From contig NZ_VSZS01000068.1 in NCBI RefSeq assembly GCF_008180155.1, positions 1 to 64,000 of the forward strand: DNA of 64,000 nucleotides, written 5' to 3'. This DNA is from Neoaquamicrobium microcysteis (lineage in GTDB: Bacteria; Pseudomonadota; Alphaproteobacteria; Rhizobiales; Rhizobiaceae). The first letter of the stretch is position 1; each line of letters starts with the position of its first letter. Below are positions 2,763 to 25,446 of this stretch, one piece after another. A program made the position numbers and the translations under genes. The notes beneath the pieces are model-generated. The model did not search any database. It saw nothing but the letters and a program-made list of their open reading frames with translations, and was not told the DNA's origin.

Positions 2763-4331
2763 CTACGCTCCCGCTTCCAGAGCGCGCAGGACATCGTCGG
2801 TCGTCGTCACCGCGGCCACGTTCTGCATCGCGTAGTCGATCGAGGCGCGGTGCCAGTCGGCATTCATCGTCGAGCACGCGTCTTCGGGCACGATCATGAT
2901 GTAGCCCTTGTCGGCGCCGGTTCGCGCCGTGTGCTCGATCGACATGTTGGTCCACGCTCCCGTCTCGATGATCGTGTCGCGGCCTTCCGCCTTCAGGATC
3001 GTTTCGAGATTGGTGCCCTCCCACGCGCTCATGCGGTTCTTTGAAACGATGTGATCGCCCGGCTGCGCCTCCAGCCCCGGCACGGCCTGTGCGCCCCAGC
3101 TTCCCTTGACGAGCGCGTTTGCCTGAACCGTGTTTTCGAACAGCGGGGCGTTGAGCGTCATGCTGCGGCCGGCATTGTCGACCTCGAACCACACATGGAT
3201 GACGGGGACGCCCAGCGCCCTACAACGCTCGGCCAGACGCCGGGCGTTCTCGATCGCGTTCTGGTCGCGGCAATGCTGGGGCGAACCGGATTCTGAAAAA
3301 GCGCCTCCTTCCATGACAACATCGTTCTGCATGTCCTGGATGATGAGCGCGCAGCGCTGGGGATCAAGCCCGGCATGGTTGTTTGACATCGCTTGGCGTC
3401 CCTCCTTCTTCACCGGGCCGGCCTTCATGAAAGGTTCGCTCCGCGGGCCGATCTTCACGTCCACCGCGTAGACGGATGTCGATGCGCAGACGAACAGTGT
3501 ACGCCAGTCCTTCCCGCCCCAGTGCAAATTGGCGGGCAGCTCCGGTATCGAGATCTTGCCGAGAAGCTGGCCATCCGGGTCGTAAACCCAGATGCCGCCG
3601 GGCGCCGTCACCCAGACATTGCCTTCCGCGTCGCACTTCATGCCATCCGGCACGCCGGGCCTGAGCGTGTCCCTGATGCCCGAGGCGAACATGCGTCCGC
3701 TGCCCAACGTCCCATCGGGCCTCACATCGAAGACCCGGATGTTGCATTGTTCGGTGTCGTTCACGTAAAGGCGCTTCTCGTCCGGCGAGAAGCAGAGGCC
3801 GTTGGGCTGGGTGAACATGTAGCGCTCGACGAGCAACTGGGGATCGTCACCCTCCCTTCCCGGCGCGATGCGGAAGACGCCCTGCCAGCCCAACTGGCGC
3901 GGACGTTCGATGCCGTAATGAGGCATGCGGCCGTACCAGGGGTCGGAGAAGTAGATGGAGCCGTCGGATCGCACGCATAGATCGTTTGGGCTGTTGAGTT
4001 CTCTGCCCTCGAAATGGCTGGCCAGCACCTGGCGCGCACCGTCGGGACGAAAGCGGGAAACGGTGGAAGTCGCGTGCTCGCAGACAAGCAGATTCAGGTC
4101 GGCATCATAGGTCATGCCGTTGCCCTTGTTGGCGGGGCTCAGAACCTCCCGCACTCCATTGCCGTCCCATCGGCGGCGCACGTCTCCGGGCATGTCGGAA
4201 AACAGCAGATAATGTTCATGCGGATGCCAGATAGGCCCCTCAGTGAAGATAAATCCCGAGCCGATTTGGCGCACCGGCGCATGCTCATCGACAAGGTTGC
4301 GGAACTGCGGCCTTACGGCTTCGTGCGCCAT
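2763..4331 (-). CDS. SMP-30/gluconolactonase - isochorismatase-like hydrolase fusion
   Basis: The 522-residue protein joins two complete enzymes. Residues ~10-310 are an SMP-30/gluconolactonase beta-propeller (FTEGPIWHP, NSPNDLCVRSDG, VPDGMKCDAEGNVWV), a metal-dependent lactone hydrolase fold. Residues 315-522 are a cysteine-hydrolase/isochorismatase domain with Asp333 in IIQDMQND and Lys431 in SKNRMSAW. The usual catalytic Cys is replaced by Ser464 in TNMSIEHT. An internal ATG at 3389 retains its own AAGGAGGG site, so the second domain may also be made alone. This looks like an operon pair joined by loss of the first stop. It is the last gene of the Mo-hydroxylase locus; a role in the later hydrolytic steps is inferred. 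Confidence 0.85.
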   Translation of the reverse strand: MAHEAVRPQFRNLVDEHAPVRQIGSGFIFTEGPIWHPHEHYLLFSDMPGDVRRRWDGNGVREVLSPANKGNGMTYDADLNLLVCEHATSTVSRFRPDGARQVLASHFEGRELNSPNDLCVRSDGSIYFSDPWYGRMPHYGIERPRQLGWQGVFRIAPGREGDDPQLLVERYMFTQPNGLCFSPDEKRLYVNDTEQCNIRVFDVRPDGTLGSGRMFASGIRDTLRPGVPDGMKCDAEGNVWVTAPGGIWVYDPDGQLLGKISIPELPANLHWGGKDWRTLFVCASTSVYAVDVKIGPRSEPFMKAGPVKKEGRQAMSNNHAGLDPQRCALIIQDMQNDVVMEGGAFSESGSPQHCRDQNAIENARRLAERCRALGVPVIHVWFEVDNAGRSMTLNAPLFENTVQANALVKGSWGAQAVPGLEAQPGDHIVSKNRMSAWEGTNLETILKAEGRDTIIETGAWTNMSIEHTARTGADKGYIMIVPEDACSTMNADWHRASIDYAMQNVAAVTTTDDVLRALEAGA

Positions 4332-4354
4332 CCTTTCCTCCCTCCCCCCTGCCG

Positions 4355-5203
4355 TCAGACCGGGAACCAGTGGCGGCGATGCACCGTCTGGCTGACAGGC
4401 CCAGGCACAGCCATGTCGAGACGGCCGACGATCTGGCCGTTCTCGACCTTCGCGGGCTTGTCGTGCACTGGCAGCAGGAATTTCGAACCATTCAGCAGCT
4501 TCTTGATCGCCGCCTTTTCGCCGCGCTTGGAGCCGGCATGATTTCCCGTCACCTGCGGCTCGTTCGCATTGATCTGGTGATAAGGATCGACGATCTGGTT
4601 CTGGATGTCATAGATCACGTCGCCGCAGATGGTCGCACGGCCTTCAGCCGTCTCGACATGGACGTTCATCGAACCCTCGGTATGTGCATTGGCTGCTTCC
4701 AGCACAACGCCCGGGATGAGTTCTACGGGGCCCGACAGTTCGAGGTCCTCGAAGCGGAGCGCGCCGGGTGTGTGCAGCCGCTCAACGAGATGCATGATGT
4801 CCGGCTTGGGATATTGCGGGTGCATGAGGCCGGAAACGGAACATTCCATCTCGCGCCGGTTGACCACCACCGTGGTGTTCATCGGGAAGTGGTCGTCCTT
4901 GCCGGCATGGTCGATATGAAGATGTGTGTGGCAGATGTAGCGGACGTCGCCGGGCTTCACCCCGTTACGGGCAAGCTGGTTCTCGATCATCTGTTCATGG
5001 AACTGCAGCCCCCGCATGCCCAGAATTTCCATGATCGCGTTGTCGCGAAAGCCGGTATCCACCAGCACGGGATACTGCCCGCCGAGTATGAGGAAGCCGT
5101 AGGTGTAGACGCGCGCCCTGATGCCGCAATTGCGTCCCAGCACGAGAAAGCTCGATTCGAGCTCGATGTCGCCGTAGTCGAGAACCTTGATCTCCAGCGC
5201 CAT
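4355..5203 (-). CDS. metallo-beta-lactamase-fold hydrolase, lactonase-like
   Basis: The 282-residue cytoplasmic protein carries the zinc signature HTHLHIDHAG (residues ~92-101), a later ligand His in AANAHTEGS, Asp in CGDVIYD, and a final His in PVHDKP. This is the set for a dinuclear zinc hydrolase of the N-acyl-homoserine-lactonase-like branch. The start has GGAGGG four bases upstream. It lies between an amidohydrolase and an SMP-30/isochorismatase fusion, all probably co-transcribed. Hydrolysis of a lactone or cyclic ester intermediate is the likely job. Quorum quenching is possible but the catabolic context argues against it as the main role. Confidence 0.8.
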   Translation of the reverse strand: MALEIKVLDYGDIELESSFLVLGRNCGIRARVYTYGFLILGGQYPVLVDTGFRDNAIMEILGMRGLQFHEQMIENQLARNGVKPGDVRYICHTHLHIDHAGKDDHFPMNTTVVVNRREMECSVSGLMHPQYPKPDIMHLVERLHTPGALRFEDLELSGPVELIPGVVLEAANAHTEGSMNVHVETAEGRATICGDVIYDIQNQIVDPYHQINANEPQVTGNHAGSKRGEKAAIKKLLNGSKFLLPVHDKPAKVENGQIVGRLDMAVPGPVSQTVHRRHWFPV

Positions 5204-5225
5204 TGCGCCCTCCCTTCATTGTCGT

Positions 5226-6107
5226 TCAGAGCCGGTAGACCCGCTTTGCCGTGTCGTAGAAGATCGCCTTCTGACGTCCTGCGCTCAGGTCGCTGGCGGC
5301 CTTGAGGAAGGAGCCGACGAGCTTGGCGTAGCTGGTCCAGAGCTTTTCGATTGGAAAGTTCGAGCCATACAGGCAACGCTTCGCGCCGAAGATCGCGATC
5401 GTGTCGTGCAGGATGCGCTCGATATGCGCGTCATCATTGCGATGGATGAAGGTGCCGAAGGCAGACAGTTTCGACACGACATTTTCCTGCTTCGCCAGCT
5501 TGCGCATCTGCGCCTTCCATGTGGCGCGGCCGTCGTCCGAGAGGTCTTCCAGCATTCCCGCGTGCTGCAGGACGAAGGTGACCTTCGGACATGCTTCCGC
5601 CAGCTCGGCCGCGCCCTCCATCTGGTCCGCAAAGACCTGAAGATCGAAGCTCCAATCGTAGTCAGCGAGATAGCCGATGTTGCGCTGGACGTTGGCGTCG
5701 CGACACAGGTCCGGCGTCTTTGCGAAGCGGTATTGCGCGTTCTCGTGCCAGTGAAACTGCTGACGTATGCCGCGCATCAGCGGATGCTTTGCCAGCTTGT
5801 CGAGGGCCGGGCGCGCATCAGGCACCGTCATGTCGCAATAGCCGACGATGGCATGCGGCCATCCAGTACGATCGGCGGTTTCCTGCACCCAGGCGACCTC
5901 GTCGGCGGCCCAGTTCGGTGCCCAGTTGGCCTGCACATAGACGGACTTCTCAACGCCGGTTCCAGCTATGTCATCCAGAAACTCCTCGATGGGATAATCG
6001 CGCTTGATCGCATCGTATTCACCGAAGATGCGTGGTTGGGAGGGCCCGAGCAGCCACGGCAAATCCGACTGTCGCCAGATGTGATGATGAGCGTCGATGA
6101 TCTTCAT
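5226..6107 (-). CDS. amidohydrolase 2 family, TIM-barrel metal-dependent hydrolase
   Basis: The 293-residue product begins MKIIDAHHHIW, the HxH metal motif of the amidohydrolase 2/fuconolactonase-like family. A central VLQHAGM (residue ~195) and a C-terminal YGSNFPIEKLW supply further ligand positions. The ATG at 6107 overlaps the stop of the VWA gene (ATGA), which fixes the start; the longer frame to 6146 is not needed. These enzymes hydrolyse lactones or decarboxylate ring-derived acids. With the neighbouring lactonase-like genes it suggests ring-opening chemistry after hydroxylation. The substrate is unknown. Confidence 0.85.
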   Translation of the reverse strand: MKIIDAHHHIWRQSDLPWLLGPSQPRIFGEYDAIKRDYPIEEFLDDIAGTGVEKSVYVQANWAPNWAADEVAWVQETADRTGWPHAIVGYCDMTVPDARPALDKLAKHPLMRGIRQQFHWHENAQYRFAKTPDLCRDANVQRNIGYLADYDWSFDLQVFADQMEGAAELAEACPKVTFVLQHAGMLEDLSDDGRATWKAQMRKLAKQENVVSKLSAFGTFIHRNDDAHIERILHDTIAIFGAKRCLYGSNFPIEKLWTSYAKLVGSFLKAASDLSAGRQKAIFYDTAKRVYRL

Positions 6108-7222
6108 GCAGCCATTTCCCTTTCGAACCCCAGCACCTCCGCGCATACGCGCTGCGCACTCGACCCGTCTCCCAGCCGGTCGATGAAGGGCAGCACGGAC
6201 CGCAATGCCGCTGTCTCGGCGATGTAGTCGTTTCCGCCAGCCAACGGGCTCAGCCAGAGAATGCCCCAGGACAGACGTGACAACTTCTGTACGGCGTCGG
6301 TCATCGCGCGGTGGTCACCTCGCTCCAGTCCGTCGGACAGGATGACCACCATCGCGCCCCGTGCAAAACCGGCGAAGCGCGGGATGGACAGGAACACCTG
6401 CAACGCGTCGCCAAGCCGCGTTCCTCCATCCCAGTCCGCCACAAGGGCCGAGGCCGTCGCAAGCGCGCGGTCGCGATTGCGCCTGCGCAACGCGCGCGTG
6501 ACGCGGGTCAGCCTTGTGCCGAGCGTGAAGGCTTCGAGACGGTCGGTCGACTGCGCCAGCGCGTGGGCAAAGCGCAACGAAGCGTCGGTATGGTCCTTCA
6601 TCGAACCGGACACGTCGATCAGCAGCAGGATGCGACGACGACGTTTCCGTCTTTCCAGCACAGGAAGGGACACCACCTCGCCATCGCGGCGAACCGCCTC
6701 GCGCAGCACACGCCGCATGTCCAGCTGTCCCCTGCCCTTGCTCGCCATCAGCCTTCGCGACCGGCGCCTGGGCAGTGCATTCGGCGCTTCTCGGCGGAAG
6801 CGGCGCAACGCCTCGTTCTCGGAGAGTGAAGCAAAGCCCCGCGCAAACAGCCGCTCGGCGCCTGTGGGCTGCCCGCCGGATTCTTCAGCATCTTCCAGGT
6901 CCGGCGGTTCGCTGTCACCGTCACGATCGTCGAACGCCTGAAGCTCTTCCTCGTCGTCGGGTTCGCCCGGAACGGGAGCGGCAATCGTCTGACCAAGAAA
7001 CGCAAGACGAAACAGCGCCTCGAACTCCGGGCGTCGCTCCGGTGGCGGCGCGAGCGTCGCATGGGCAGCGCGAAAAATATCTTCCATGGAGCGCGGCCCC
7101 AGGAGGCCGACGGCCGCGATGAAGCTTCGCGTCTGCTCAGGCGCCAGCGAAAAGTCGTTGTTTCGCAGGAGCGTTGCGAAATCCAGGAAGGGCTTGAGTG
7201 GGCGCGGGAAAAGCTCGCTCAT
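6104..7222 (-). CDS. VWA-domain protein, CoxE-like maturation factor
   Basis: The 372-residue protein has a divergent helical N-terminus with an acidic stretch (residues ~88-115), then a von Willebrand A domain with the MIDAS motif DVSGSMKD around residue 200. CoxE-type VWA proteins pair with MoxR ATPases (CoxD) and help build the active site of CO dehydrogenase and related Mo hydroxylases. The gene overlaps both neighbours by 4 bp (MoxR upstream, amidohydrolase downstream), consistent with a single operon. There is no signal peptide, so it acts in the cytoplasm. Confidence 0.88.
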   Translation of the reverse strand: MSELFPRPLKPFLDFATLLRNNDFSLAPEQTRSFIAAVGLLGPRSMEDIFRAAHATLAPPPERRPEFEALFRLAFLGQTIAAPVPGEPDDEEELQAFDDRDGDSEPPDLEDAEESGGQPTGAERLFARGFASLSENEALRRFRREAPNALPRRRSRRLMASKGRGQLDMRRVLREAVRRDGEVVSLPVLERRKRRRRILLLIDVSGSMKDHTDASLRFAHALAQSTDRLEAFTLGTRLTRVTRALRRRNRDRALATASALVADWDGGTRLGDALQVFLSIPRFAGFARGAMVVILSDGLERGDHRAMTDAVQKLSRLSWGILWLSPLAGGNDYIAETAALRSVLPFIDRLGDGSSAQRVCAEVLGFEREMAA

Positions 7223-8100
7223 GCCGCAGCCTCGTCAAGAATCTGGTCGAGGCGAGGCTGCATGAACAACAGGTCGTCATGGTCCTTCAGCGCAACGCCT
7301 ATGGCGCGGCGGAACGCGGCGGGCCACGGCGCGCCCTGGTGGTTGAGAAGCGTGGCTGCCTCGGCCCACTCGACCGTTTCGGCAACGCCGGGCGGCTTGG
7401 CGAGTGGTTCTGCCCTCAGCGCGCCGACCGCTGCCACCACCCGGTTGGCAGTATCCTGCGCCACGGTCGAGGCGCGCATCATCACGATCTGCGCTTCCAA
7501 TGCGGGGTGCGGATAGTCGATCCAGTGATAGACGCAACGCCGCCGCAGCGCTTCGTGAAGTTCACGTGTCCGGTTGGAGGTGAGCACTACAACCGGATGT
7601 TCTGTTGCGCGCACGGTGCCGCGCTCTGGAATGGAGATGGAGAAATCCGACAGGAATTCGAGCAGGAACGCCTCGAACTCATGGTCGGCCCTGTCGATTT
7701 CATCGATCAGCAGCACCGTATCGCGCGGGTGACGCAATGCGTCGAGCATCGGCCGTGCGATGAGAAATTCGTCGGAATAGATGTTGACGTACTCATCGTG
7801 CGCCTGCCGGATCGACAGCATCTGGCGCGGATAATTCCACTCGTAGAGCGCGTGCGCGGCGTCGATGCCTTCATAGCATTGCAGTCGCACGAGTTGCCGG
7901 CCGAGGATGGAGGCGATGGCCTTGGCGCCCTCCGTCTTGCCCACACCTGGCGCACCCTCTAGCAGCAACGGCTTGCCCAGCGCCAGCGCCAGATAGGCGG
8001 CGGTCGAAAGCCCCTCATCAGCGATATACTGCGCATCCTGCAGCGCAGCAGCCAGCCGATCCGGGCTGTCGATGCCGACTATGGAGTGCCTGATGGGCAT
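7219..8100 (-). CDS. MoxR-family AAA+ ATPase, CoxD-like
   Basis: The 293-residue ATPase has a P-loop LEGAPGVGKTE near residue 50, Walker B TVLLIDEIDRAD, and sensor-1 VLTSNRTREL. The start at 8100 (MPIRHSIVG) is chosen because the extension to 8250 reads in a non-coding style through the preceding gene. MoxR/CoxD ATPases act with VWA partners as chaperones that complete Mo-hydroxylase cofactors, and the VWA gene follows with a 4-bp overlap. It lies directly after the catalytic subunit genes. Confidence 0.92.
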   Translation of the reverse strand: MPIRHSIVGIDSPDRLAAALQDAQYIADEGLSTAAYLALALGKPLLLEGAPGVGKTEGAKAIASILGRQLVRLQCYEGIDAAHALYEWNYPRQMLSIRQAHDEYVNIYSDEFLIARPMLDALRHPRDTVLLIDEIDRADHEFEAFLLEFLSDFSISIPERGTVRATEHPVVVLTSNRTRELHEALRRRCVYHWIDYPHPALEAQIVMMRASTVAQDTANRVVAAVGALRAEPLAKPPGVAETVEWAEAATLLNHQGAPWPAAFRRAIGVALKDHDDLLFMQPRLDQILDEAAA

Positions 8101-8102: not shown

Positions 8103-9128
8103 CTAGCCCCGCCGCCCCTGCGGCTGCGCGCCGCCATTGGCGCGGATGCCTCGCAGGATCTTTTCCGGGGTGATCGGCAGCTCGTCGATGCGCACGCCTA
8201 CCGCGTTGAAGACGGCATTGACCATGGCTGGAAGCACCGGATTTGCGCACATTTCGCCCGGTCCCTTGCCGCCATACGGGCCATCTGGCGCGGGGCGCTC
8301 GAGGATGGAAATATGATGGGAAGCAATGTCGCCGGGCCCTGGCATTAGATAGGTATTAAAATCGAGCGGGCCGTGGCTGCGTTCAGGGTAATAGGGCTCG
8401 GTCGTTTCCCAGGCAGCGTGGCTCAATCCCATCCACGCGCCGCCTACCAGCTGCTGTTCGACGAGGCGCGGGTTGAGCGCGCGACCAAGCTCGTAGGCGC
8501 TGTTCATCTCCACCACATCGATCTCGCCCGTTTCATCGTCTACATCGATATCGACGATCAGGGCGGCGTGGGCGAAGCAGGAAACCGGCGTCATCTCGCC
8601 GGTCTCGGGATCGACCTCCGACAGCGGGATCAGGAAGATGCCGCGGCCGGAAACCGTGCGCCCCTGCTTGAACTGCGCGGCGCCACACGCCTCGGCCGTC
8701 GTGATCGACTTGGAAGGCGCGCCCTTCACGTGGATGTTGCCCTTGCCGTCGGTCACAAGGTCGGCAGGGTCGACTTCCAGTTCCTCGGCAGCCGCCTCCA
8801 GCATCACCGCACGGGCCTCCTGCGCGGCCTGGATGACGGCGTTGCCCACACGGTGCGTGCCGCGCGAGGCGAAGGAGCCCATGCAGTGCGGGCCGGTGTC
8901 GGAATCGGCGGTGTCCACGTAGACATCCTCGACCGGCACCCCCAGCGTCTCAGCCGCGATCTGGCGCGTGACCGATTTCATGCCCTGCCCGAGATCGATC
9001 GACGACAATGCGACCATGAACTTGCCGCCGGGATTGGAATGCACCAGCGCCTGCGAGGGGTCGCCACCAAGGTTCATGCCGATGGGATAGTTGATAGACG
9101 CAAAGCCCCGCCCGCGGTGAATGGTCAT
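8103..9128 (-). CDS. Mo hydroxylase large subunit, C-terminal half
   Basis: The 341-residue protein begins MTIHRGRGFASINYPIGMN, which matches the middle of a xanthine-dehydrogenase-family molybdopterin subunit. It continues with DLGQGMKSV, the molybdopterin-binding stretch HCMGSFASRGTHRVGNAV, and near the end PYGGKGPGEMCANP, which carries the usual catalytic Glu position. The ATG at 9128 lies one base after the stop of the N-terminal-half gene, so the two are translationally coupled and should assemble into one active site. The frame upstream of this ATG looks non-coding. See the entry at 9130. Confidence 0.85.
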   Translation of the reverse strand: MTIHRGRGFASINYPIGMNLGGDPSQALVHSNPGGKFMVALSSIDLGQGMKSVTRQIAAETLGVPVEDVYVDTADSDTGPHCMGSFASRGTHRVGNAVIQAAQEARAVMLEAAAEELEVDPADLVTDGKGNIHVKGAPSKSITTAEACGAAQFKQGRTVSGRGIFLIPLSEVDPETGEMTPVSCFAHAALIVDIDVDDETGEIDVVEMNSAYELGRALNPRLVEQQLVGGAWMGLSHAAWETTEPYYPERSHGPLDFNTYLMPGPGDIASHHISILERPAPDGPYGGKGPGEMCANPVLPAMVNAVFNAVGVRIDELPITPEKILRGIRANGGAQPQGRRG

Positions 9129-9129: not shown

Positions 9130-10803
9130 TCAGCGCCTCCGCAAGCCGGAAATCGAGGAAAACCGCGTGCGCCGCGCATCGCTGGCCGTCTGCGCCGGCG
9201 GGGCAGGCGGTGGCGGCGCGGACGCCGCAGGCTGGTGTTGCGGCCGCACCGGCTGTTCGTAGCGTGGAGCCACCGGCACGCTGTCATGCCGGGGCGTCTG
9301 TGTCGGCAGCGATTGCGGCGCGGCCGGTTCCGAGCGCTTTGCCTTGCGGGCGTAGTTGCCGGCCGTAAACCCGGTGACCAGACCGTTCTGGTCGATCGCG
9401 GTAAAGTTCGGGATTTTGGCCCGTTCGCCACCCCCCTCGCGCAGCGAAGACGCCTGCCGCGCTTTCTGGCTGATCGGCCATTGGGCCTTTTCGGCCGCGA
9501 CCTGACAGCACTCGATGAGCGCCGTGTTCTTGGCCAGACGACGATGCGCCTTCATGTCGCCGTCCCGGTACGCATTGAGGATGCGCAGCTCGATCGGGTC
9601 CATGTTCACCGCATGGGCCACCTTGTCCATATGCGCCTCGATGGCGAAATCGACGCCCGTGATGCCGAAGCCGCGCATGGCGGTTGCAGGGGTGCGGTTG
9701 GTGAAGACGCAGTAGACGTCGGCGTAGACGTTGGGGATTGTGTATGGCCCCGGCAGGTGGCCGACGCCCTTAATGATGGCGTAGCTTGAAAGGCGGGTGT
9801 ATGCGCCGCTGTCGAAGTAGCCGATGAACTTGCGCGCCACGATGCGCCCGTCGTTCATCACTCCGTCCCGGATGTACCAGCGTTCGGCGCCGCGTGGTGC
9901 GCCGACCTGCATCTCTTCCTCGCGGTCGAAGATGTATTTGCATGGGCGTCCCGTCAGCATCGTGCCCAGAACCGCAAGCGGCTCGTGCAGAGAATCCACC
10001 TTGCCCCCGAAGCCGCCACCAACGGTGCCGCCGATGAAGTGCAGCCGGTTGGACGGCGTTTTCAGCAGCTTCGAGGTGGTGTCGAGCGAGAAGAACAGCG
10101 CCTGCGTGGAGGTGTACACCACGTAGCGGTCGTTGGTTTCGGGAGCCGCTATCGCGCCGCAGGTCTCGGTGGGCGCCTGCTCGATGGGCGACATCTGATA
10201 GCGCCCTTCGATGACCTGATCCGCCTGTCGAAACCCTGCCTCTACATCGCCGAAGCGCAGCTTCTGATGGTCGTACTTGCCGTGATAGATGAAGAGATTG
10301 CCCGGATAGATGTCGTTTACGACGGGCGCGCCGGGCTTCACTGCCTCTTCAACGTCGAAGACAGCCGGTAGCTCTTCCCAGTCGACCCGGACCTTCGCCA
10401 CGGCGTCGCGCGCCGCGCGTTCGCTCTCCGCCACCACGGCCGCGACGGGTTCGCCCTTGTACGACACCTTCTTTTCCGACAGCAGCGGCTCGTCATCGAT
10501 GCCGAAATCCAGCAGCGACAGGAGCGTGTTCAGATTTTGCGGCACGTCCCGCCCGGTGATGATGCGAACGACCCCCGGCATACGCTCCGCCTCGCTCGTA
10601 TCGATGCGGCGGATGCGTGCGTGATGGTGCGGGCTTCGCACGCAGCGTATGTGCAGCAGCCCGTCGAACAGGTGATCGTCGAAGAAGGGCGAGCGGCCCG
10701 TGACGTGGCCGAGTGCATCCTGCCGCTGGGTAGGCTTGCCGATCTCGTTGAGATTGTCGTCGCGCTCGTCGGCGAAATATTCCTTGCGGAATTCGATCGT
10801 CAT
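9130..10803 (-). CDS. Mo hydroxylase large subunit, N-terminal half with Pro-rich tail
   Basis: The 557-residue protein holds the first half of a xanthine-dehydrogenase-type large subunit: GKPTQRQDALGHVTG, the a/b hammerhead region, IGGTVGGGFGGKVDS, and TPATAMRGFG. The last motif is of the xanthine/aromatic hydroxylase type and lacks the AYRCSFR loop of true CO dehydrogenase. From about residue 485 it leaves homology and ends in a ~70-residue Pro/Ala/Gln-rich tail (SAPPPPAPPAQT). The rest of the enzyme is the next gene, 1 bp away. Splitting within the catalytic subunit is unusual. It follows the 2Fe-2S subunit gene. Confidence 0.85.
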   Translation of the reverse strand: MTIEFRKEYFADERDDNLNEIGKPTQRQDALGHVTGRSPFFDDHLFDGLLHIRCVRSPHHHARIRRIDTSEAERMPGVVRIITGRDVPQNLNTLLSLLDFGIDDEPLLSEKKVSYKGEPVAAVVAESERAARDAVAKVRVDWEELPAVFDVEEAVKPGAPVVNDIYPGNLFIYHGKYDHQKLRFGDVEAGFRQADQVIEGRYQMSPIEQAPTETCGAIAAPETNDRYVVYTSTQALFFSLDTTSKLLKTPSNRLHFIGGTVGGGFGGKVDSLHEPLAVLGTMLTGRPCKYIFDREEEMQVGAPRGAERWYIRDGVMNDGRIVARKFIGYFDSGAYTRLSSYAIIKGVGHLPGPYTIPNVYADVYCVFTNRTPATAMRGFGITGVDFAIEAHMDKVAHAVNMDPIELRILNAYRDGDMKAHRRLAKNTALIECCQVAAEKAQWPISQKARQASSLREGGGERAKIPNFTAIDQNGLVTGFTAGNYARKAKRSEPAAPQSLPTQTPRHDSVPVAPRYEQPVRPQHQPAASAPPPPAPPAQTASDARRTRFSSISGLRRR

Positions 10804-12122: not shown

Positions 12123-12580
12123 GCCCCTCCCTGCGATGCGGGTTCGAGCCCCATGAAAGCGCGAACGGCGCGAAAGCCGCCTTCGTAGATTTCCTCACCG
12201 ACCTGCTTTTTCAGCTCGGCCTCCCGTCCCGGCGGCGTGTCGAAACGCGACTCCCAATGCCAGAAGGTCATGTCGCCGTCCGTGACCGGCACGAGCCGCA
12301 CATGCGCGACGTAGTTGAGAAGCGGGATAGGCGTGTCGAGCAGGCAGTAGGAAAAGGCCATGTCGATGTCCGACATCGTCAGCAGCAGTTCGCGCAGCTC
12401 CGACCCGTCGGCCAGATGGAACCTGCGCACGCAGCCGACCTTGTCGGACGGCAGCCCTCGTTCGATATGGCTGTCCGCGACCGCCGGATGCCACTGGTCG
12501 TGACCGTTGAAGTCGCGCAGCACATCCCACACCGCCTCAACCGGCGCTTCCATGATGGTGGATTTGACGATTTTCACCAT
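12119..12580 (-). CDS. SRPBCC / CoxG-like protein A
   Basis: The 153-residue protein is an SRPBCC (START-like) fold member: MEAPVEAVWDVLRDFNGHDQWHP at the N-terminus, then SDKVGCVRRF, and a long C-terminal helix. It is a paralogue of the next gene upstream and shares WHP, SDKVGCVR and the YD/ID-M motif with it. CoxG proteins of this fold work with CO dehydrogenase at the membrane. Here the location directly before the FAD subunit suggests the same. No membrane tail is visible, unlike longer CoxG proteins. Confidence 0.8.
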   Translation of the reverse strand: MVKIVKSTIMEAPVEAVWDVLRDFNGHDQWHPAVADSHIERGLPSDKVGCVRRFHLADGSELRELLLTMSDIDMAFSYCLLDTPIPLLNYVAHVRLVPVTDGDMTFWHWESRFDTPPGREAELKKQVGEEIYEGGFRAVRAFMGLEPASQGGA

Positions 12581-16720: not shown

Positions 16721-18934
16721 CTACCTTGTCCTTGCCCGCCGCTGCGGTCTGCCGCCACCGTGCAGAGCGCGGTATGCCTTGACGACTTCGGCGGAAAATT
16801 CGGGATCGTTGATATGGTGAGGCAGGCGGATGAGCTGCCGCGTCGAAGTCTGACGCACGGTGGCTTCCAGCGCGCGGAACAGTGCGTCGTCGGCAGCCGG
16901 ATCATGGAAGGGCTGGCCCGGAGCGTCGAGCGCGGAGACACCCTTCTCCGGCAGGAAGAAGCGGACCGGCGCCTCCATTGCGTTCAGGCGCTCGCCGATC
17001 CAGCGGCCCATGGCCGTGTTCTCGTCAGCCGTTGTGCGCATCAGCGTGATCTGCGGATTATGGCGGTAAAGATTGCGGTGTCGAAATTTCTCCGGCACCG
17101 TCTCGAATGCGCGGAAATTGACCATGTCCAGCGCGCCGACCGAGCCGACATAGGGCATGCGCGTGCGGATCATCGCTCCGAAGCGGTCTTCGGTCGCGGG
17201 AAACACCCCGCCCACCAGCATGTCGCAAACCTCGGTGGTGGTAACGTCGATGACGCCCTGCACCATGCGCGACTCCACAAGCTTCTCCATCGACTGGCCG
17301 CCGATGCCGGTGGCATGGAAAACGAGGCAGTCGTGGTCCGCGTCGAGCTCTGCGGTGATCTGGCGAACGCATTGGGTGGTCACACCGAACATGGTGAGGG
17401 CCACGGTGGGGCGATCGTCCGAGGGTTGCCGCGCGCTTTCACGCCGGGCCCGCACCATCCCGGCAATCGCATTCGCGCCGTTGGCAAGCACGGACCGGGT
17501 GATGGAGTTCAGGCCCTGTACGTCCGCGACCGAATGCATCATGACGATGTCGGAGGGGCCGACATAGCTGGAGACATCGCCCGACGCGATGGTGGAAACG
17601 ATGAGCTTCGGCACGCCGATCGGCAGGGCGCGCATGGCCGGGGCTACCATCGCGGTACCACCGGAACCGCCGGCGCCGATAATGCCTGCGATGCCGGTCT
17701 GCCGCTCGATCCAGCGCTCGAATGCCAGCGTCATGCCGGCGACCGCCTCGCCACGATCGCTCGAGAAAACGCCGCTCGCCCCGCGCGGATGATAGGCAGC
17801 AATCTGGTGCGCGGGTATCTCGGCACCCGAGTGCCTTCCGGTCGTCGACAGATCGACGATGCGCACCGGCAGGCCCGCAGCGCGGATCGTGTCGCGGATG
17901 AAGCGCAGTTCCTCACCCTTGGTGTCCAGAGTGCCGGCGACCAGCACGACCTGTTCGCCGGGAGAGGCCAGTGGCCGCAGTTCGGTCTGCGCGGGCACGG
18001 AAGCCTGCAGGCCAGTGATGGTGCGCGCAGCTTGGATGATCTGTCGCCTTGGCGTCGGCTTGGACCAGCGCGTCGGCGGCACGGGGTTCGACATGTAGAC
18101 TTTGTGTGAAGCCGGCTCCCGTCCGGGAGCGGCTTGCCGGTCTGCTTCTTCAAGAGGCGATGCGGCCTGCCTTCCGGCGTCGTCTTCCGAATGCCGGCCC
18201 ACGCCGAGAAGGCGCTGCTGCAAATCGCGGTCCGCCGCAAGCTGGCCGGAATCGATGACGCGGTTGATGCGACCGTTGACCATGATGCCGACGCTGGCTG
18301 CCACGGCGGTCGCCACACCGATGTTCTGTTCGATGACGAGAACGTCGATGCCCTCTTCCTCGCCGATGCGAAGCAGGATGTCCTCGACATGGTTGACGAT
18401 AACGGGCGCGAGGCCCTCGGTCGGCTCGTCCATGACCAGCAGGCGCGGATTGGTCAGCAGCGCGCGCGATATCGCCAGCATCTGCTGTTCGCCCCCGGAA
18501 AGCTGCCCGCCGCCATTGCTCTTGCGTTCGGCCAGACGCGGAAATGTCGAATAGATGCGGTCGATGGTCCACGCACCGCTCCTGCCTGACGCGACCATGC
18601 GCAGATGTTCGTCCACGGTCAGGGAGCGCCAAAGGCGACGGCCCTGGGGCACGTAGCCTATGCCCATCTGCGCGATCGCCGAAGGCGAGCGGCCGACGAG
18701 TTGCTCGCCGTTGAAGGTGATCGACCCGCCGGACACCGGCACCAGCCCCATGATCGCCTTGCACAGGGTGGTCTTGCCCATGCCATTGCGGCCAACCACC
18801 GAGAGAACGCCGCTGTCGAGCGTAAGGTCGACACCCTGAAGGGCATGGGAAGCGCCGTAGTAGACGTTGAGGCCGCGTATCTCGAGCGCGGCAGCGCCAA
18901 TGCGCCTGCGTTCAGCCCCCTGTCGCTCAACCAT
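16721..18934 (-). CDS. LIV-type ABC ATPase fused to Tm-1-like (UPF0261) domain
   Basis: The 737-residue fusion has a LivF-type ATPase at ~15-245 (P-loop [11 protein letters not shown], signature LSGGEQQ, Walker [11 protein letters not shown]). A hydrophilic linker follows at ~246-326, then a Tm-1-like domain at ~327-725 ([48 protein letters not shown]). Both domains look intact. It overlaps the LivG-type gene by 8 bp. The fusion ties the unknown UPF0261 function physically to the importer. Whether the UPF0261 part modifies the incoming substrate, or uses ATP itself as the plant protein binds it, is unknown. Confidence 0.9.
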
Positions 18935-19724
18935 GACCGCCTCCGAGATAAAGCTCCTGAACCTCGGGGTCGTTCTCGATCTCGCTGGGCAGGCCCTCCT
19001 TGAAGATGCGGCCGTTGTGCATCATCGAGACCGTCTCGGCGACGCGCAGCGCCACGTCCATGTCGTGCTCGATGATGATGTAGCCGATATGCCGGGGCAG
19101 GCTCGTCAGGATCGCCACGAGATCGGAGCGCTCGGTCGGCGACAGGCCGGCAGCCGGCTCGTCGAACAGGATGAAACGGGGCGCGCCCGCCAGCGCCAAT
19201 GCGATCTCCAACTGGCGCTGCTGCCCGTAGGACAGTTCGGCGACCAGCGTCTCGGCAACGTCGCCGAGATGAACCGCATCGATCAGTTCGGTAGCCGATT
19301 GCATCAGCGCGTCGGAGCGGCGCGGCCGCCGCATCGAGAACCGCCCGCGCGAAACGCCCCGGCAGGCGAGGTAGACATTGTCGATGACGCTCAGCCCGCC
19401 GAACAGCAGCGATATCTGGTAGGTGCGGCGCAACCCCCGGCGGATACGCTCATGCGGAGGGAAGCTTGTCACGTCCTCGCCGAAGAGGCGGATGGTGCCG
19501 GAGGTCGGCAGAAAATCGCCAGTCACGCAGTTGAACAGCGTGGTCTTGCCAGCACCGTTGGAACCGAGAACGCCGCGCCGCTCTCCGGGTTTCACAGTAA
19601 GCGTCACGTCGGTAAGGGCGGCAAGCGCGCCGAACATCCGTGTCACGCCGCGCAACTCCAGCGCGTTACCCGTGCCGGCGGCGGTCAGCATCTCGCCCAC
19701 ATTGCGTTCGGCCGTGAGGCTCAT
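18927..19724 (-). CDS. branched-chain-amino-acid-type ABC transporter ATPase (LivG type)
   Basis: The 265-residue ATPase shows P-loop VLGSNGAGKTT, the LivG-typical long insert after ERIRRGLRRTYQ, signature LSYGQQRQLE and Walker B FILFDEPAAG, ending in the LivG hallmark DPEVQELYLGGG. It pairs with the fused ATPase downstream to drive the two permeases. Its start overlaps the stop of the permease gene by 4 bp. Confidence 0.93.
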   Translation of the reverse strand: MSLTAERNVGEMLTAAGTGNALELRGVTRMFGALAALTDVTLTVKPGERRGVLGSNGAGKTTLFNCVTGDFLPTSGTIRLFGEDVTSFPPHERIRRGLRRTYQISLLFGGLSVIDNVYLACRGVSRGRFSMRRPRRSDALMQSATELIDAVHLGDVAETLVAELSYGQQRQLEIALALAGAPRFILFDEPAAGLSPTERSDLVAILTSLPRHIGYIIIEHDMDVALRVAETVSMMHNGRIFKEGLPSEIENDPEVQELYLGGGHG

Positions 19725-20809
19725 GATTTGCCCCCCTGCCCGGTAAGCGGATCACCACGTGTCTGACGATGGGAACGCCATTTTTCCCACAAGCCCAGAA
19801 CACCATCAGGCGACCAGTAGACGACGGCGAGGAAGCCCAGCCCGATCAATAGCTTGAAGCGGTCGCCGGGCAGGTTCAGCGCCAACAGGATGTCGGGGGC
19901 ATAGGTGCGCAGGATCACGTAGATGAACGCGCCGATGAAGGGACCGATGGGCCGCTTGAGACCGCCGACGATGGCGATGACCAGAATATCGATGACGGCC
20001 GGCAGACCCGCCGTACCCGGTGCGATCTGCGCGTTCTGCCAAACCATGAGGATGCCGGCCACCGCCGCGATGATGCTGGCGAAGGTGTAGGCGAACACGC
20101 GATGCGCAAAGACGTTGAAGCCGAGCGCGGCCATGCGGCGCGGATTGTCGCGGACACCCTGAAGCGCAAGTCCGAAGGGTGAACGCGATACGTATACGAC
20201 GACCGCAAACGAGATCGCCGCGCAAGCCAGCGTCAGATAGTAGAACGGGATGGGCCTGCGCCAGTTGATGCCGAACAACTCAGGCGGCACGACGTTGGCG
20301 AAGCCGGTGTAACCGTTGAAAATCGTATAGTTCTGGCGCGTGAAGTAGAAGAAGGCCGCCGCTATCGCGAGCGTGATCATGATCGTGTAGATGCCTTCGG
20401 TCCGCACGGCCAACGCGCCTATAAGCGTGGCGAAAAGGGCGGCGATGAGGATGGCAACGGGGATGTAGAGCCACCACGGCCAGAAAAGGCTGATGGTCTG
20501 GACACCGCTCGGACCGAGGATCGCTACCATGTAGCCTGCAAGACCGGCGATCGACATCTGCGCCAGGCTGACCATGCCGCCGTAGCCCCCCAGAAACATC
20601 AGGCTGAGCGCGATCATGCCAAGGATGAACGCCCAGCCGAATATCTGGAACAGAACGAAGTTGCCGGCGACGACAGGCATGAACAGCAGGGCCACGCCGA
20701 CCACCCACCAGGAAACCGGGATGCCTGAAATCCATTCGGGCACGTCGCTCGCCGCCTGCCTCGGCCGGGTCAGCCGGTTGGGAATGCCTGTCTGGTCCAC
20801 TGTCGCCAT
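19721..20809 (-). CDS. ABC transporter permease (LivM type)
   Basis: The 362-residue polytopic membrane protein has about eight to ten hydrophobic segments and the conserved GGYGGMVSLAQMSIAGLAGY motif of LivM permeases. It also carries the EAA-like region VRDNPRRMAALGFNVFAHR that contacts the ATPase. It lies 3 bp after the LivH-type gene. Substrate specificity cannot be read from it. Confidence 0.93.
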   Translation of the reverse strand: MATVDQTGIPNRLTRPRQAASDVPEWISGIPVSWWVVGVALLFMPVVAGNFVLFQIFGWAFILGMIALSLMFLGGYGGMVSLAQMSIAGLAGYMVAILGPSGVQTISLFWPWWLYIPVAILIAALFATLIGALAVRTEGIYTIMITLAIAAAFFYFTRQNYTIFNGYTGFANVVPPELFGINWRRPIPFYYLTLACAAISFAVVVYVSRSPFGLALQGVRDNPRRMAALGFNVFAHRVFAYTFASIIAAVAGILMVWQNAQIAPGTAGLPAVIDILVIAIVGGLKRPIGPFIGAFIYVILRTYAPDILLALNLPGDRFKLLIGLGFLAVVYWSPDGVLGLWEKWRSHRQTRGDPLTGQGGKS

Positions 20810-20812: not shown

Positions 20813-21826
20813 TCAGCGCCCCAGAAGGCCTTGCGGGCGAAATGCCAGCACAAGGGCCATGATGAGGAAGGTCAGCACGACCGAATATGTCGGCGCGTAG
20901 ACGGAGCCGAGCTGCTCGGCGAGCCCGATCAGCACCGCACCCAGCGCAGCGCCGAAGATCGATCCCATTCCGCCGACGATGACCACCACCAGCGATGCAA
21001 GCAGGAATCGCATGTCCTCGCCCGCCGAGACCGACTGGAAGGTGCCGCCGACGATACCCGCGATGCCGGCCAGCCCTGCGCCGAAGGCAAAGACGAGGAT
21101 GAAGACATACTGGATGCGCACGCCAGAGGCGGCCAGCATCTCGCGGTCGTCCACGCCGGCACGGATGAGCATGCCGACACGGGTGCGGTTGAGCGCCAGC
21201 CACATCAGGACACCCAGCGCAATGGAGGCGACGAGTATGGCGATGCGCACTGCGGGGAACGTGAGATAGACGAGTTCGCCCTCGCCCCTGATGGCGGTGA
21301 TGAGAGGAAGCGTGACAGGCCCGCTAAGAAAATCGGGCGTCAGGATCTGGTAGGAGTGACTCCCCCAGCGCCACAGCATGAGATCGGCGAGAACGATCGA
21401 GATGCCGATCGTCACAAGCGTCTGGCGCAGATCCTCGCCCTCCATACGCCGAAACACGACGTATTGCAGCACGATGCCTATGAGGGCAACGATGATGAAG
21501 ACCACCACGAACGCGCCGAGCCACGAGCCTGTCGCCTCGGCGAACTCGTAGCCGATGTATCCACCGAGCAGATACAGGGACCCGTGGGCCAGATTGACGT
21601 TCTTCATCAAGCCGAAGATGAGCGTGAAGCCGCTGGCGACGAGGAAGTAGAGAGCGCCGAGCGTGATGCCGTTGAACAGCGCATTCAAGAAGATGCGCTT
21701 GCGCCCGATGGCCGCCTCGAGACCTTCGGGCCATGGAGCGACGACCAGCCAGACCAGCGCGGCGACTGCCACCGCAATGATTACCGACCATACCGGATTG
21801 CGCTGTATGAAGCGGCTCACCCGCAC
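20813..21826 (-). CDS. ABC transporter permease (LivH type)
   Basis: The 337-residue membrane protein has the LivH signature LNALFNGITLGALYFLVASG and SGFTLIFGLMKNVNLAHGSL. It carries a C-terminal MGSIFGAALGAVLIGLAEQLG. It is the first gene after a ~180-bp gap downstream of the AraC gene and may have its own promoter there. It forms the transmembrane channel with the LivM-type protein. Confidence 0.93.
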   Translation of the reverse strand: MRVSRFIQRNPVWSVIIAVAVAALVWLVVAPWPEGLEAAIGRKRIFLNALFNGITLGALYFLVASGFTLIFGLMKNVNLAHGSLYLLGGYIGYEFAEATGSWLGAFVVVFIIVALIGIVLQYVVFRRMEGEDLRQTLVTIGISIVLADLMLWRWGSHSYQILTPDFLSGPVTLPLITAIRGEGELVYLTFPAVRIAILVASIALGVLMWLALNRTRVGMLIRAGVDDREMLAASGVRIQYVFILVFAFGAGLAGIAGIVGGTFQSVSAGEDMRFLLASLVVVIVGGMGSIFGAALGAVLIGLAEQLGSVYAPTYSVVLTFLIMALVLAFRPQGLLGR

Positions 21827-22009: not shown

Positions 22010-22846
22010 TCAGGCCAGGCCGGCGAAATGGACCACGCGGCGGTAGTCGCTCGGCGCGATCCCGGCATTGGCGATGAAGAACCGGGTAAAGCTCGCCTGC
22101 GAGGAGAAGCCCAGGTCGAGCCCGATGTCTGTGACGGCATCCGAGGTCGTCGTCAGCCGGTCAATCGCGCTCTCCATGCGCAGCGTGTTGAGGTAGATGT
22201 TGGGCGTGATGCCCACCTGCTGGCGGAAGAGCTTGTAGAAGTGCGGCCGGGACAGGCCGGACTCGCGCGCGATCTTGTCCAGAACGATGCGCTCGCTGAC
22301 GCGGTGCTGCATGAGCTTGACCGAGTTGCGCACCCGGAAATCGCGCACCGGAGGCGCGCACCGCGTGAACGTCGCGCCCTCGGCAACCCACTGCCATGAC
22401 TGGTCGAAGCAGGCCTGCGTCAGTTCGTAGAGGTAGCCGGCGATGAAGCTGTCGTCGGCATCCTCCAGCATGGCCGAAGCGACCTGAAACGAGAGCCGGA
22501 AAATCTGCTCGGTCACATCGATCTGGCTGCGGCCGAAGCGGAGCGATGCGTTTGCCTGCCGGCTGGCTTCCAGAAACCAGAAGGGCTTTATGTAGAGCGT
22601 CAGAAACAACGACGGCTCTTCGGAATCCAGCGACATGTAGTTGTGCGGCTGCCAGGGACTGATCGCAACGGCCTGGCCGCCCGACAGCGGGAATATGTCC
22701 TCATCGATCCTGATCGAGGCGGGCGGACCCTGTATATGAATTATCAGGTGGCCCTCCCTGTGCGCATGCAGGGCCAGCGAACGATCCAGATTGTACAGCG
22801 CCACGCGCCCGAACGGGCCGTGATGCACTGCCAACGCGGTGCTCAT
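22010..22846 (-). CDS. AraC-family transcriptional regulator
   Basis: The 278-residue regulator has an N-terminal cupin-like sensor half (LALHAHREGHLIIHIQGPP, IDEDIFPLSGGQAVAISPWQ). A C-terminal double helix-turn-helix follows (IARESGLSRPHFYKLFRQQV and DIGLDLGFSSQASFTRFF). GGGAGGAAC precedes the ATG. It stands between the first two genes of the locus and the permease genes, in the same orientation, and is the obvious candidate regulator of the whole cluster. The effector is presumably the transported compound or a product. Confidence 0.9.
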   Translation of the reverse strand: MSTALAVHHGPFGRVALYNLDRSLALHAHREGHLIIHIQGPPASIRIDEDIFPLSGGQAVAISPWQPHNYMSLDSEEPSLFLTLYIKPFWFLEASRQANASLRFGRSQIDVTEQIFRLSFQVASAMLEDADDSFIAGYLYELTQACFDQSWQWVAEGATFTRCAPPVRDFRVRNSVKLMQHRVSERIVLDKIARESGLSRPHFYKLFRQQVGITPNIYLNTLRMESAIDRLTTTSDAVTDIGLDLGFSSQASFTRFFIANAGIAPSDYRRVVHFAGLA

Positions 22847-24158: not shown

Positions 24159-24190
24159 GCCTGCGGACGGGGGAACAACCGTCCGCAGGC
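24159..24190 (-). terminator. strong hairpin after the binding-protein gene
   Basis: A perfect 12-bp inverted repeat (GCCTGCGGACGG at 24159-24170 and its complement at 24179-24190, 8-base loop) starts 9 bp after the stop of the binding-protein gene. It lacks a clear U-run, so it may act as an mRNA stabiliser or partial terminator that keeps binding protein in excess over the genes downstream. Confidence 0.6.
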
Positions 24191-24198
24191 GCTGCGCT

Positions 24199-25446
24199 TT
24201 ACGGGTTCAGCGCCGCACAGTCCGGCGTGTCGCGGGAAGGCAGGCCGATGGCGTCGAATTCTTCCTTCGACATGCCCAGCTTCTGGTCCACGTTGTCGAC
24301 CTTGGCCTTGAAGGTATTGTGCAGAGAGCCGTCCGCACCTTCCACCACCTCGGTGATGAAGATGGACCCGATGGCCTGACGGTTCTCATCAAGCTTGATG
24401 TGCCCGTTCGGCGCATCGAACTCCAGCGACGAGAGGGCCGCGTGGAAGTTCGCCTGATCTTCGTCGAGTTCGCCGCCGATCTGTTCCAGCGCCATCAGCG
24501 TCGCAAGCGTCGCGCCGTAGTAGTTGGTAGCGAACAGCGATGGTGACGGGAAGCCATCCGGGAAGGTTTCCTGATAGTCCTTCACATAGGCCTGCCATTC
24601 AGGGTTGTCCCAGTCGTCGGCCTGCGGGCCGGAACTGGGCGTACCCACCAGAGCTTCCTTGGCGCGGCCGCGCGCGGTCAGCACCGTCTGATCCACCATG
24701 ATGGTGCCGCCGATGATGTTGGTGTCACCGCCGGCCTGCTCATACTGGTTGAGGAAGTTGACCGCATCGGTGCCGCCGACGCCCAGATAGATCGCGTCCA
24801 CGTCGTCGGGCAGTGCCGCGATGATCGAGGCAAAGTCGCCGCTGCCCAGGGGCAGCCAGAAGCGCTCCACGATCTCGCCGCCGGCCTTGCAGAAGTCGAC
24901 CGCGAAGCCCATGAAGTTGGTGTATCCGAAGGAATAGTCGGCCGCCACGGTGGCTACGCGTTTCCATCCCTTCTCGTTGACGACGTAGCTGCCGAGACCG
25001 TAGCCCCATTGTGCGCCGTCGGGGTGGAAGCGGAAGAAGTTCGGGGCGGGATCGACATAGGTCGTCTCAAGCGCGCCGGACGCCGTGTTGATGATCGTCT
25101 TGTCGGGAATGGTCTTGGCGTAGTCGCGCAGGGCCAGACCTTCCGAACCCGACAGCGGGCCGAGAATGAAGTCGACGCCTTCCTGCTCGATCAGGCGGCG
25201 CGCCTCGCGAACGGCGCGGTCGGGCGTCGCATCCGTAGGCCCCAGAACCCATTCGATCTTGTTGCCGTTGATCTCGCCATTGTACTTGTTGAGCGCGAGT
25301 TGGAAACCACGGATGCCGTCGTTGCCCGGCTCGGTGAACACACCTTCCTGCGGGGCCAGCAGACCGATCTTGATTGTCTCGGCCATGGCGGCCGCAGGTG
25401 CGAGTATTGCAAGCGCAGCGACGGTACTGACAAGTTTCAGTTTCAT
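24199..25446 (-). CDS. periplasmic amino-acid/amide-type substrate-binding protein
   Basis: The 415-residue protein has a clear signal peptide (MKLKLVSTVAALAILAPAAA, cleavage after AMA) and a type I periplasmic-binding fold of the LivJ/urea/amide family (IKIGLLAPQEGVF, IEQEGVDFILGPLSGSEG, YYGATLATLMALEQIGG). GGGAGGA lies before the ATG. It captures the substrate for the LIV-type importer whose permeases are encoded 2.4 kb downstream. It is probably the first gene of the locus, with its promoter in the 285-bp gap shared with the divergent L,D-transpeptidase gene. Confidence 0.92.
   Translation of the reverse strand: MKLKLVSTVAALAILAPAAAMAETIKIGLLAPQEGVFTEPGNDGIRGFQLALNKYNGEINGNKIEWVLGPTDATPDRAVREARRLIEQEGVDFILGPLSGSEGLALRDYAKTIPDKTIINTASGALETTYVDPAPNFFRFHPDGAQWGYGLGSYVVNEKGWKRVATVAADYSFGYTNFMGFAVDFCKAGGEIVERFWLPLGSGDFASIIAALPDDVDAIYLGVGGTDAVNFLNQYEQAGGDTNIIGGTIMVDQTVLTARGRAKEALVGTPSSGPQADDWDNPEWQAYVKDYQETFPDGFPSPSLFATNYYGATLATLMALEQIGGELDEDQANFHAALSSLEFDAPNGHIKLDENRQAIGSIFITEVVEGADGSLHNTFKAKVDNVDQKLGMSKEEFDAIGLPSRDTPDCAALNP

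Follow-up and report, generated by a model that had tools for sequence, protein, structure and literature searches.

Enzymes that are packaged into encapsulins or bacterial microcompartments carry a flexible linker ending in a short conserved terminal peptide. Bacterial flotillins, to our knowledge, are seldom tied to one dedicated client enzyme. Among molybdenum hydroxylases, the closest structure to the enzyme considered here is PDB entry 3HRD, which we take to be the nicotinate dehydrogenase of Eubacterium barkeri, encoded by the genes NdhFSLM. Human flotillin 1/2 is described, in the passages of PMC11260169 that treat its architecture, as a membrane-attached truncated cone of 44 subunits with a 186-residue wall. 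We analysed a 64,000-nucleotide stretch of Neoaquamicrobium microcysteis DNA (contig NZ_VSZS01000068.1, positions 1 to 64,000; hereafter the window), in which 20 genes, all on the minus strand and spanning positions 2763-25446, encode a LIV-type ATP-binding cassette (ABC) importer, a giant flotillin, two SRPBCC proteins and a molybdenum hydroxylase whose molybdenum subunit is split into two chains, MoA and MoB. We propose, with a probability of about 0.5, that the locus is a self-contained uptake-and-oxidation unit, in which the hydroxylase is tethered via a tail on MoA to a membrane module of flotillin and SRPBCC proteins. The MoA tail and its conserved peptide are the main new finding, and were absent from an earlier note on this DNA. 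The results suggest that a catabolic enzyme is anchored in bacteria to a membrane scaffold made of flotillin.

The window MoA extends approximately 100 residues past its last recognised domain. For comparison, we distinguished type-A loci, which have the importer, flotillin, SRPBCC pair and tailed split hydroxylase; type-B loci, with flotillin and importer and without hydroxylase; sister loci, with the split hydroxylase and without an in-locus flotillin; and one type-D locus (L185). The tail is 77-190 residues long in the 84 type-A rows (median 115), compared with 3-7 residues in the 14 sister rows. Between type-A rows, pairwise identity averages 73% over the core, 18% over the linker, which is 29% Pro and 20% Ala, and 64% over the last 11 residues. 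A conserved core, variable linker and conserved end is, as judged from these alignments, characteristic of a flexible tether that bears a binding motif. The tail is predicted to be disordered, as every 10-residue block from residue 461 onwards has a mean pLDDT (predicted local distance difference test) below 50 in the AlphaFold2 model. It is also basic, as is the terminal peptide, which has one or two large hydrophobic residues. Several loci retrieved from genomes lie on the same contigs as loci of the contig scan described below (e.g. L059 and L079), and distinct tails were therefore counted, giving 76 in the 84-row set and 110 pooled. All 110 end in RRR, whereas not one of 1342 other proteins matched in the 84 type-A rows does, a control that includes duplicate contigs; the pattern F-x(3-7)-RRR fits 109 of the 110, the exception being L210. 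When the peptide was searched in the window's own genome MoA was the sole match, and a regular-expression scan of the loci found MoA plus two evident chance matches (one in L113, one in L151). In a MoB tree of 23 type-A and 14 sister rows, type A forms one clade (100/100) with the sister-type rows outside, some of which branch with a haloarchaeal copy from Salinigranum. With the tree rooted on the unsplit Thermomicrobium roseum enzyme, whose branch is very long, the tail appears to have been gained once, on the stem of type A.

The co-occurrence of flotillin and hydroxylase across genomes, which the earlier note had offered as a check, was borne out. In the INDEPENDENCE test, MoB was searched in 397 genomes of the order, of which 132 gave a match at E <= 1e-30; among the matches listed, identity is at least 77% in 46 genomes (the window's own excluded), 63-69% in 13 and at most 37% in the rest. 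All 46 close-MoB stretches were fetched, and flotillin lies beside the hydroxylase in 39 of the 39 that reach the flotillin position, while the tail is found on 44 of 44 complete MoA proteins. In the other seven, the stretch breaks off at a contig end or close to one, so that an adjacent flotillin was not scored, and two of them also have no complete MoA; whole-genome search found a flotillin on another contig in six of the seven, 71-86% identical to the N-terminal part of the window's, and no match in the seventh (G551, see below). A contig scan anchored on SRPBCC1, from which the best 80 of at least 572 loci were retained, found flotillin in 80 of these 80 and the FAD subunit after SRPBCC2 in 78. 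Of the two loci without the FAD subunit, L086 reaches the contig end and L140 stops after SRPBCC1; in the latter (Labrenzia sp. DG1229, L140:10001-20435) reverse-strand LIV genes follow, reflecting a decayed copy or an assembly join. The gene order from LivH to the SGL-isochorismatase gene recurs across Alphaproteobacteria, with hosts including Roseibium, Bosea, Hoeflea, Elioraea, Acuticoccus, Jannaschia and Ruegeria. Plasmid records searched with the LivF-UPF0261 fusion gave four records at a coverage of at least 80%. Syntenic loci are present in Shinella zoogloeoides p1_Teo12 (L035, without the MBL gene) and in Yoonia SS1-5 (L036), where the locus also holds an aldehyde dehydrogenase (ALDH), two short-chain dehydrogenases and a fumarylacetoacetate hydrolase. 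Upstream flanks were fetched for seven genomes: the periplasmic binding protein lies upstream of LivH in all seven and the Fe-containing alcohol dehydrogenase in five, one of the others having an ALDH instead and one neither. A record titled Oceanobacillus sp. HTM 045 (Bacillota; L105, WNWL01000004.1) also contains a complete type-A locus; its MoB falls among alphaproteobacterial copies in the tree, and the record is probably mislabelled or contaminated. Among the matches listed, no description of this cluster was found in the open-licence full-text literature searched for UPF0261, PF09370 and flotillin together with molybdenum hydroxylase and SRPBCC topics.

The sister loci comprise the 13 genomes of intermediate MoB identity, for which all stretches were fetched, and a plasmid copy of Sinorhizobium BG8 (L181); the unsplit T. 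roseum locus was left out. MoA ends at about residue 455 in each of the 13 genomes, and none of the 14 sister hydroxylases has a tail. The sister loci are without this importer, and in the stretches of the 13 genomes searches for flotillin, SRPBCC2, UPF0261 and PF09370 genes gave nothing; across all 14 sister stretches, the absence of flotillin was scored in 13, as the contig of L168 ends just past MoA. MoxR and VWA genes are present in 13 of 14 and SRPBCC1 in 7 of 14. Three sister loci were scanned: sugar-type ABC binding proteins occur in L166 and L163, with a LacI regulator in L166 as well, and L167 has an aldo-keto reductase. In one sister-type genome MoB has two in-frame TGA codons (L164, G271:C22:77074-78096), and the same genome also has a type-B flotillin locus (L186). 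A haloarchaeal plasmid of Salinigranum rubrum (L180:12668-15047) encodes split MoA/MoB, FAD and FeS subunits, a cyclase and an SRPBCC protein, with no flotillin annotated in the stretch.

The 11 type-B loci have no molybdenum hydroxylase in their stretch. They share with type A the LIV importer with LivF-UPF0261, the flotillin and SRPBCC1 and 2, and most have the PF09370 protein; in Variovorax paradoxus VAI-C (L037), for instance, importer, UPF0261, PF09370 protein, flotillin and two SRPBCC proteins are present. In all 11, SRPBCC2 is fused via a linker to a quinone-oxidoreductase-like enzyme of the zinc medium-chain dehydrogenase/reductase family (Zn-MDR), as identified by BLAST in all and by Pfam in two. 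T. roseum (L038) has the importer, an unfused UPF0261 protein, the PF09370 protein and an unsplit molybdenum hydroxylase, without flotillin. In two further loci (L046:8030-9196 and L050:6146-7282) one open reading frame (ORF) matches both SRPBCC proteins, with two SRPBCC stretches recognised by Pfam in the L046 ORF; importer, UPF0261 and PF09370 genes are present there and flotillin was undetected. The type-D locus has LivF fused to a domain 24% identical to UPF0261 that has no Pfam match, and an ALDH at the hydroxylase position (L185:6645-8702 and 13430-14953); no PF09370 gene was detected in it. The flotillin/SRPBCC block thus appears to occur with exchangeable oxidoreductases. Close orthologues travel as one unit, and the sister hydroxylase and flotillin/importer versions live apart, sometimes in one genome; since the modules are found separately as paralogues, the unit was assembled from separable modules. 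The independent occurrence of the blocks, which according to the earlier note would speak against a single system, therefore holds for the paralogues (sister loci and the 11 type-B loci) and not for this unit, with its 39 of 39 adjacent pairs.

The window flotillin has an N-terminal transmembrane helix, an SPFH domain, a helical wall of about 580 residues and a C-terminal Flot domain, as indicated by PF01145 and PF15975 and by fold matches; the five best PDB matches of its model are all flotillin entries, four of them chains of the complexes 9bq2/9l3g. Band_7 matches occur at four places in the window's genome, and the open frame at the locus is the longest, at 948 aa compared with 336-427. 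Flotillins of type A are 858-1190 aa long (80 rows) and those of type B 562-856 aa (11 loci). The wall is 528-836 residues long in the 57 type-A rows in which it could be measured. In the window it has 583 residues and repeats internally every 44 residues (4 x 11; Z > 13 compared with shuffles).

We propose a series of interlinked steps. The LIV-type ABC importer, with its second ATPase fused to UPF0261, would take up one small organic substrate, and the split, nicotinate-dehydrogenase-like hydroxylase, matured by MoxR and VWA proteins, would oxidise the substrate or a derivative of it, whereupon three lactonase-like hydrolases and the isochorismatase domain would open and cleave the products. 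The giant flotillin would serve as a membrane-attached scaffold, probably a cage as in other SPFH proteins, to which, together with the SRPBCC proteins, the long disordered MoA tail would tether the hydroxylase, with the conserved terminal peptide (RFSSISGLRRR in the window) as the putative docking signal. The two SRPBCC proteins probably ferry a lipophilic ligand, be it substrate, product or quinone, between the membrane and the enzyme. Wherever the 84 type-A rows allow a view, the tail is accompanied by flotillin, SRPBCC2 and the LivF-UPF0261 importer, and the idea of docking, which the earlier note had marked as inference, gains support because the hydroxylase of the flotillin loci has a disordered tether and conserved peptide, whereas the sister enzymes do not. 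The sister loci keep MoxR/VWA and SRPBCC1 without the tail, which makes these unlikely tail partners. As candidate partners, MoxR/VWA, SRPBCC1, PF09370, MBL and Amidohydro_2 proteins are disfavoured, as they occur without the tail or the tail without them; the PF09370 gene is missing from two tail-bearing loci (L088, L108), the MBL gene from six and the Amidohydro_2 gene from two. Tethering of the hydroxylase to the flotillin/SRPBCC module would be the best reading of the co-occurrence. A more elaborate scheme, which we put forward tentatively and hold to be less likely than not, is that a giant flotillin cage encloses the patch of membrane in which the LIV-UPF0261 importer sits and captures the hydroxylase via the tail peptide while SRPBCC proteins shuttle lipophilic substrate or quinone between membrane and enzyme, swapped oxidoreductases (molybdenum hydroxylase, MDR, ALDH) being catabolic variants of one scaffold.

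Several observations weigh against tethering to flotillin. One genome with a tail-bearing MoA (G551) gave no flotillin or SRPBCC2 match in a search of its whole assembly, and in its locus (L199, G551:C513), near the contig start, the 281 bp that precede the FAD match contain no SRPBCC2. With an assembly of about 550 contigs and 89% completeness, this genome is either an exception to the pairing of tail and flotillin or a case of an assembly gap. At least 5 of the 13 sister-type genomes (G155, G271, G536, G381, G413) have, away from the hydroxylase, a flotillin resembling that of type B, at 59-63% identity and with an SRPBCC2-like match close by on its contig, while their hydroxylase is tail-less, which indicates that the tail accompanies a scaffold encoded in its own locus, not flotillin at large; in 7 of the 13 no flotillin match was found by whole-genome search. 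The type-D locus has flotillin, two SRPBCC proteins, MBL and an ALDH without such a tail, and no hydroxylase. The flotillin monomer model is of low confidence (predicted template modelling score, pTM, 0.30), and the formation of a cage by a flotillin longer than the human one is proposed by homology. Flotillin, SRPBCC2 and LivF-UPF0261 co-occur equally with the tail, so that co-occurrence cannot single out the partner, and because all of type A falls in one clade, a single event in evolution may have been counted repeatedly in this association.

The alternative that survives best, although we consider it somewhat unlikely, is that the tail docks on SRPBCC2, which would act as an adaptor between redox enzyme and membrane, attached through the peptide in type A and covalently fused in type B. 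Such a role fits with the fusion to MDR in every type-B locus, with the detection of SRPBCC2 in all 84 tail rows but in no sister stretch (of 14, L168, where the contig ends, being uninformative) and with the opposite charges of the basic tail and the acidic SRPBCC2 (24 D/E, 15 K/R). However, flotillin co-occurs identically, leaving nothing that favours SRPBCC2 over flotillin, and both the tail of G551 without an SRPBCC2 match and the SRPBCC2-like protein beside an untailed ALDH in type D argue against it. Less probable still is an ordinary, horizontally spread catabolic operon in which flotillin is a general membrane organiser without a direct role for the enzyme. The modules do occur separately as paralogues, and the phylum sample has many flotillins of about 560-600 aa, but the locus flotillins form a distinct long class and are missing from no tail-bearing locus with coverage. 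Direct binding of the RRR-ending peptide to anionic membrane lipid, with flotillin in the same operon by chance, is improbable: a basic peptide with large hydrophobic residues would suit lipid binding, yet its F, S and G positions are conserved beyond any need for charge and the sister enzymes have no tail. A role of the tail in MoxR/VWA-dependent maturation of the molybdenum centre is very improbable, since the two genes, which follow MoB in 84 of 84 (MoxR) and 81 of 81 (VWA) type-A rows with coverage, are also present in 13 of the 14 tail-less sister loci.

The features of the locus are listed in Table 1. Pfam agrees with the earlier note on the 20 same-strand genes and their families, the SRPBCC subtype aside. 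The tight spacing claimed there holds for the 17 genes from LivH to the SGL-isochorismatase gene, in which neighbours lie -8 to +45 bp apart, four of the junctions overlapping by 4 bp, and which can fairly be inferred from this spacing to be co-transcribed; it fails for the binding protein, alcohol dehydrogenase and AraC genes, which lie 112, 106 and 183 bp respectively from their downstream neighbour and for which the same transcript is therefore not required. Across type-A rows, LivF and UPF0261 lie within one ORF in 80 of 80, SGL and isochorismatase in 60 of 61, and the Walker A motif of MoxR and the DxSxS motif of the VWA protein are found in 84 of 84 and 79 of 81 respectively. Tomato Tm-1 has its bacterial relatives in the UPF0261 and PF09370 proteins. 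An M42 peptidase gene (26168-27319) and, adjoining it, a 665-aa ORF (27322-29319) with a GNAT acetyltransferase domain and an ATP-grasp-like region flank the locus closely on its upstream side.

Table 1. Genes and sub-features of the locus, from SBP to the SGL-isochorismatase fusion (window positions).
Feature	Positions	Strand	Family or other match
LIV-type periplasmic binding protein (SBP), 415 aa	24199..25446	-	PF13458, E 1.5e-61
Fe-containing alcohol dehydrogenase (FeADH), 377 aa	22953..24086	-	PF00465/PF25137
AraC-family regulator	22010..22846	-	PF12833
LIV permease, LivH-like	20813..21826	-	PF02653
LIV permease, LivM-like	19721..20809	-	PF02653
LivG-like ATPase	18927..19724	-	PF00005
LivF-like ATPase fused to UPF0261 (Tm-1-like) domain, 737 aa	16721..18934	-	PF00005 + PF06792 + PF23189
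PF09370 'PEP hydrolase-like' TIM-barrel protein, 276 aa	15886..16716	-	PF09370, E 6.1e-132; PDB 2p10
Giant flotillin, 933 aa	13039..15840	-	PF01145 (Band_7) + PF15975 (Flot)
SRPBCC protein 1	12590..13027	-	PF10604, also PF03364; best PDB 2le1, 3cnw 'XoxI'
SRPBCC protein 2	12119..12580	-	PF10604
Molybdenum hydroxylase FAD subunit	11301..12122	-	PF00941 + PF03450
Molybdenum hydroxylase 2Fe-2S subunit	10813..11298	-	PF01799 + PF00111
MoA, N-terminal half of split molybdenum subunit, 557 aa, tailed	9130..10803	-	PF01315 + PF02738
MoA tail, Pro/Ala-rich, predicted disordered, residues 461-557	9133..9423	-	pLDDT
MoA conserved terminal peptide RFSSISGLRRR	9133..9165	-	
MoB, C-terminal half of molybdenum subunit with KGxGE glutamate	8103..9128	-	PF20256
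MoxR-family AAA ATPase, CoxD-like maturation factor	7219..8100	-	PF07728
CoxE-type VWA protein	6104..7222	-	PF05762
Amidohydro_2 hydrolase, lactonase-like	5226..6107	-	PF04909
Metallo-beta-lactamase-fold (MBL) hydrolase, AHL (acyl-homoserine lactone)/pyridoxolactonase-like	4355..5203	-	PF00753
SMP-30/gluconolactonase (SGL) domain fused to isochorismatase domain	2763..4331	-	PF08450 + PF00857

The FAD, two [2Fe-2S] and molybdenum-cofactor domains, and the catalytic glutamate within KGxGE, place the enzyme in the xanthine oxidase family, and the division of the molybdenum subunit into two chains at a domain boundary is of the NdhL/NdhM type. The split, already recognised in the earlier note, is a genuine gene boundary, with a 1-bp gap in the window and a MoA stop before MoB in 84 of 84 type-A rows; a frameshift or assembly error is ruled out by its recurrence in those 84 and in the 14 sister rows. 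MoA matches 3hrd_A, the large molybdenum subunit of nicotinate dehydrogenase, best in the PDB, and MoB matches 3hrd_B best, its KGxGE motif, which is found in all 84 type-A rows, aligning with the glutamate region of 3HRD; a split molybdenum subunit as such is therefore already known. CoxL, the large chain of CO dehydrogenase (CODH), has the Cys signature AYxCSFR. A CODH was rejected, as MoA reads TPATAMRGFG at the equivalent position, judged by eye, and NCBIfam CODH models score far below cut-off. The Amidohydro_2 protein matches the NCBIfam model for L-fucono-1,5-lactonase at E 3.9e-30, below cut-off, and PDB 4dlf; the MBL protein resembles AHL lactonase and 4-pyridoxolactonase (PDB 5eht, 3aj3). 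Together with the SGL domain, these three lactonase-like folds hint that the pathway passes through lactone intermediates. No experimental lead on the substrate was found in the open-licence literature searched; Shinella Teo12 degrades TRIS, with the TRIS genes, in the part of PMC10848231 that reports them, on a plasmid other than that carrying the locus.

The 'CoxG-like' label of the earlier note finds no support in the family assignment, as neither SRPBCC protein gave a COXG match (presumably PF06240) at E <= 0.001 in the Pfam scan and both match PF10604. CoxG reportedly carries quinone, according to the later of two accounts. The other, in the passages of PMC4240915 concerned, states that CoxG is not involved in CODH maturation and proposes that it recruits CODH to the membrane. 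By analogy alone, the two SRPBCC proteins may likewise link the enzyme to the membrane.

Compared with the known systems, the locus shares with the E. barkeri enzyme the split at the same domain boundary and the aligned KGxGE; however, 3hrd_A has 425 aa and no such tail, whereas MoA has 557, and the genes of the nicotinate pathway were unrecognised in the locus, which is instead linked to flotillin and importer. The MoxR (CoxD) and VWA (CoxE) maturation genes are common to the locus and the cox cluster of Oligotropha carboxidovorans, but the CODH large chain is single, the locus SRPBCC proteins match PF10604 and gave no COXG match, and no CoxF-like gene was recognised in the locus. We know of no cox cluster that includes flotillin, a LIV importer or the tail. 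With cargo enzymes of encapsulins and microcompartments MoA has in common the linker and conserved terminal peptide; Pfam scans of the 20 locus genes found no encapsulin or microcompartment shell domain, and the scaffold would be a membrane flotillin. The locus flotillin resembles human flotillin (9BQ2) and HflKC cages in its SPFH domain, long helical wall and Flot domain, with a wall of 583 residues in the window compared with 186 in the human protein as given in those passages of PMC11260169, and differs in being encoded with an enzyme and an importer. The locus couples one flotillin class to one enzyme and importer. If the tail indeed docks the enzyme on the flotillin module, the UPF0261/PF09370 proteins would gain a metabolic context, and flotillin cages would count, with encapsulins and microcompartments, among the structures that organise enzymes.

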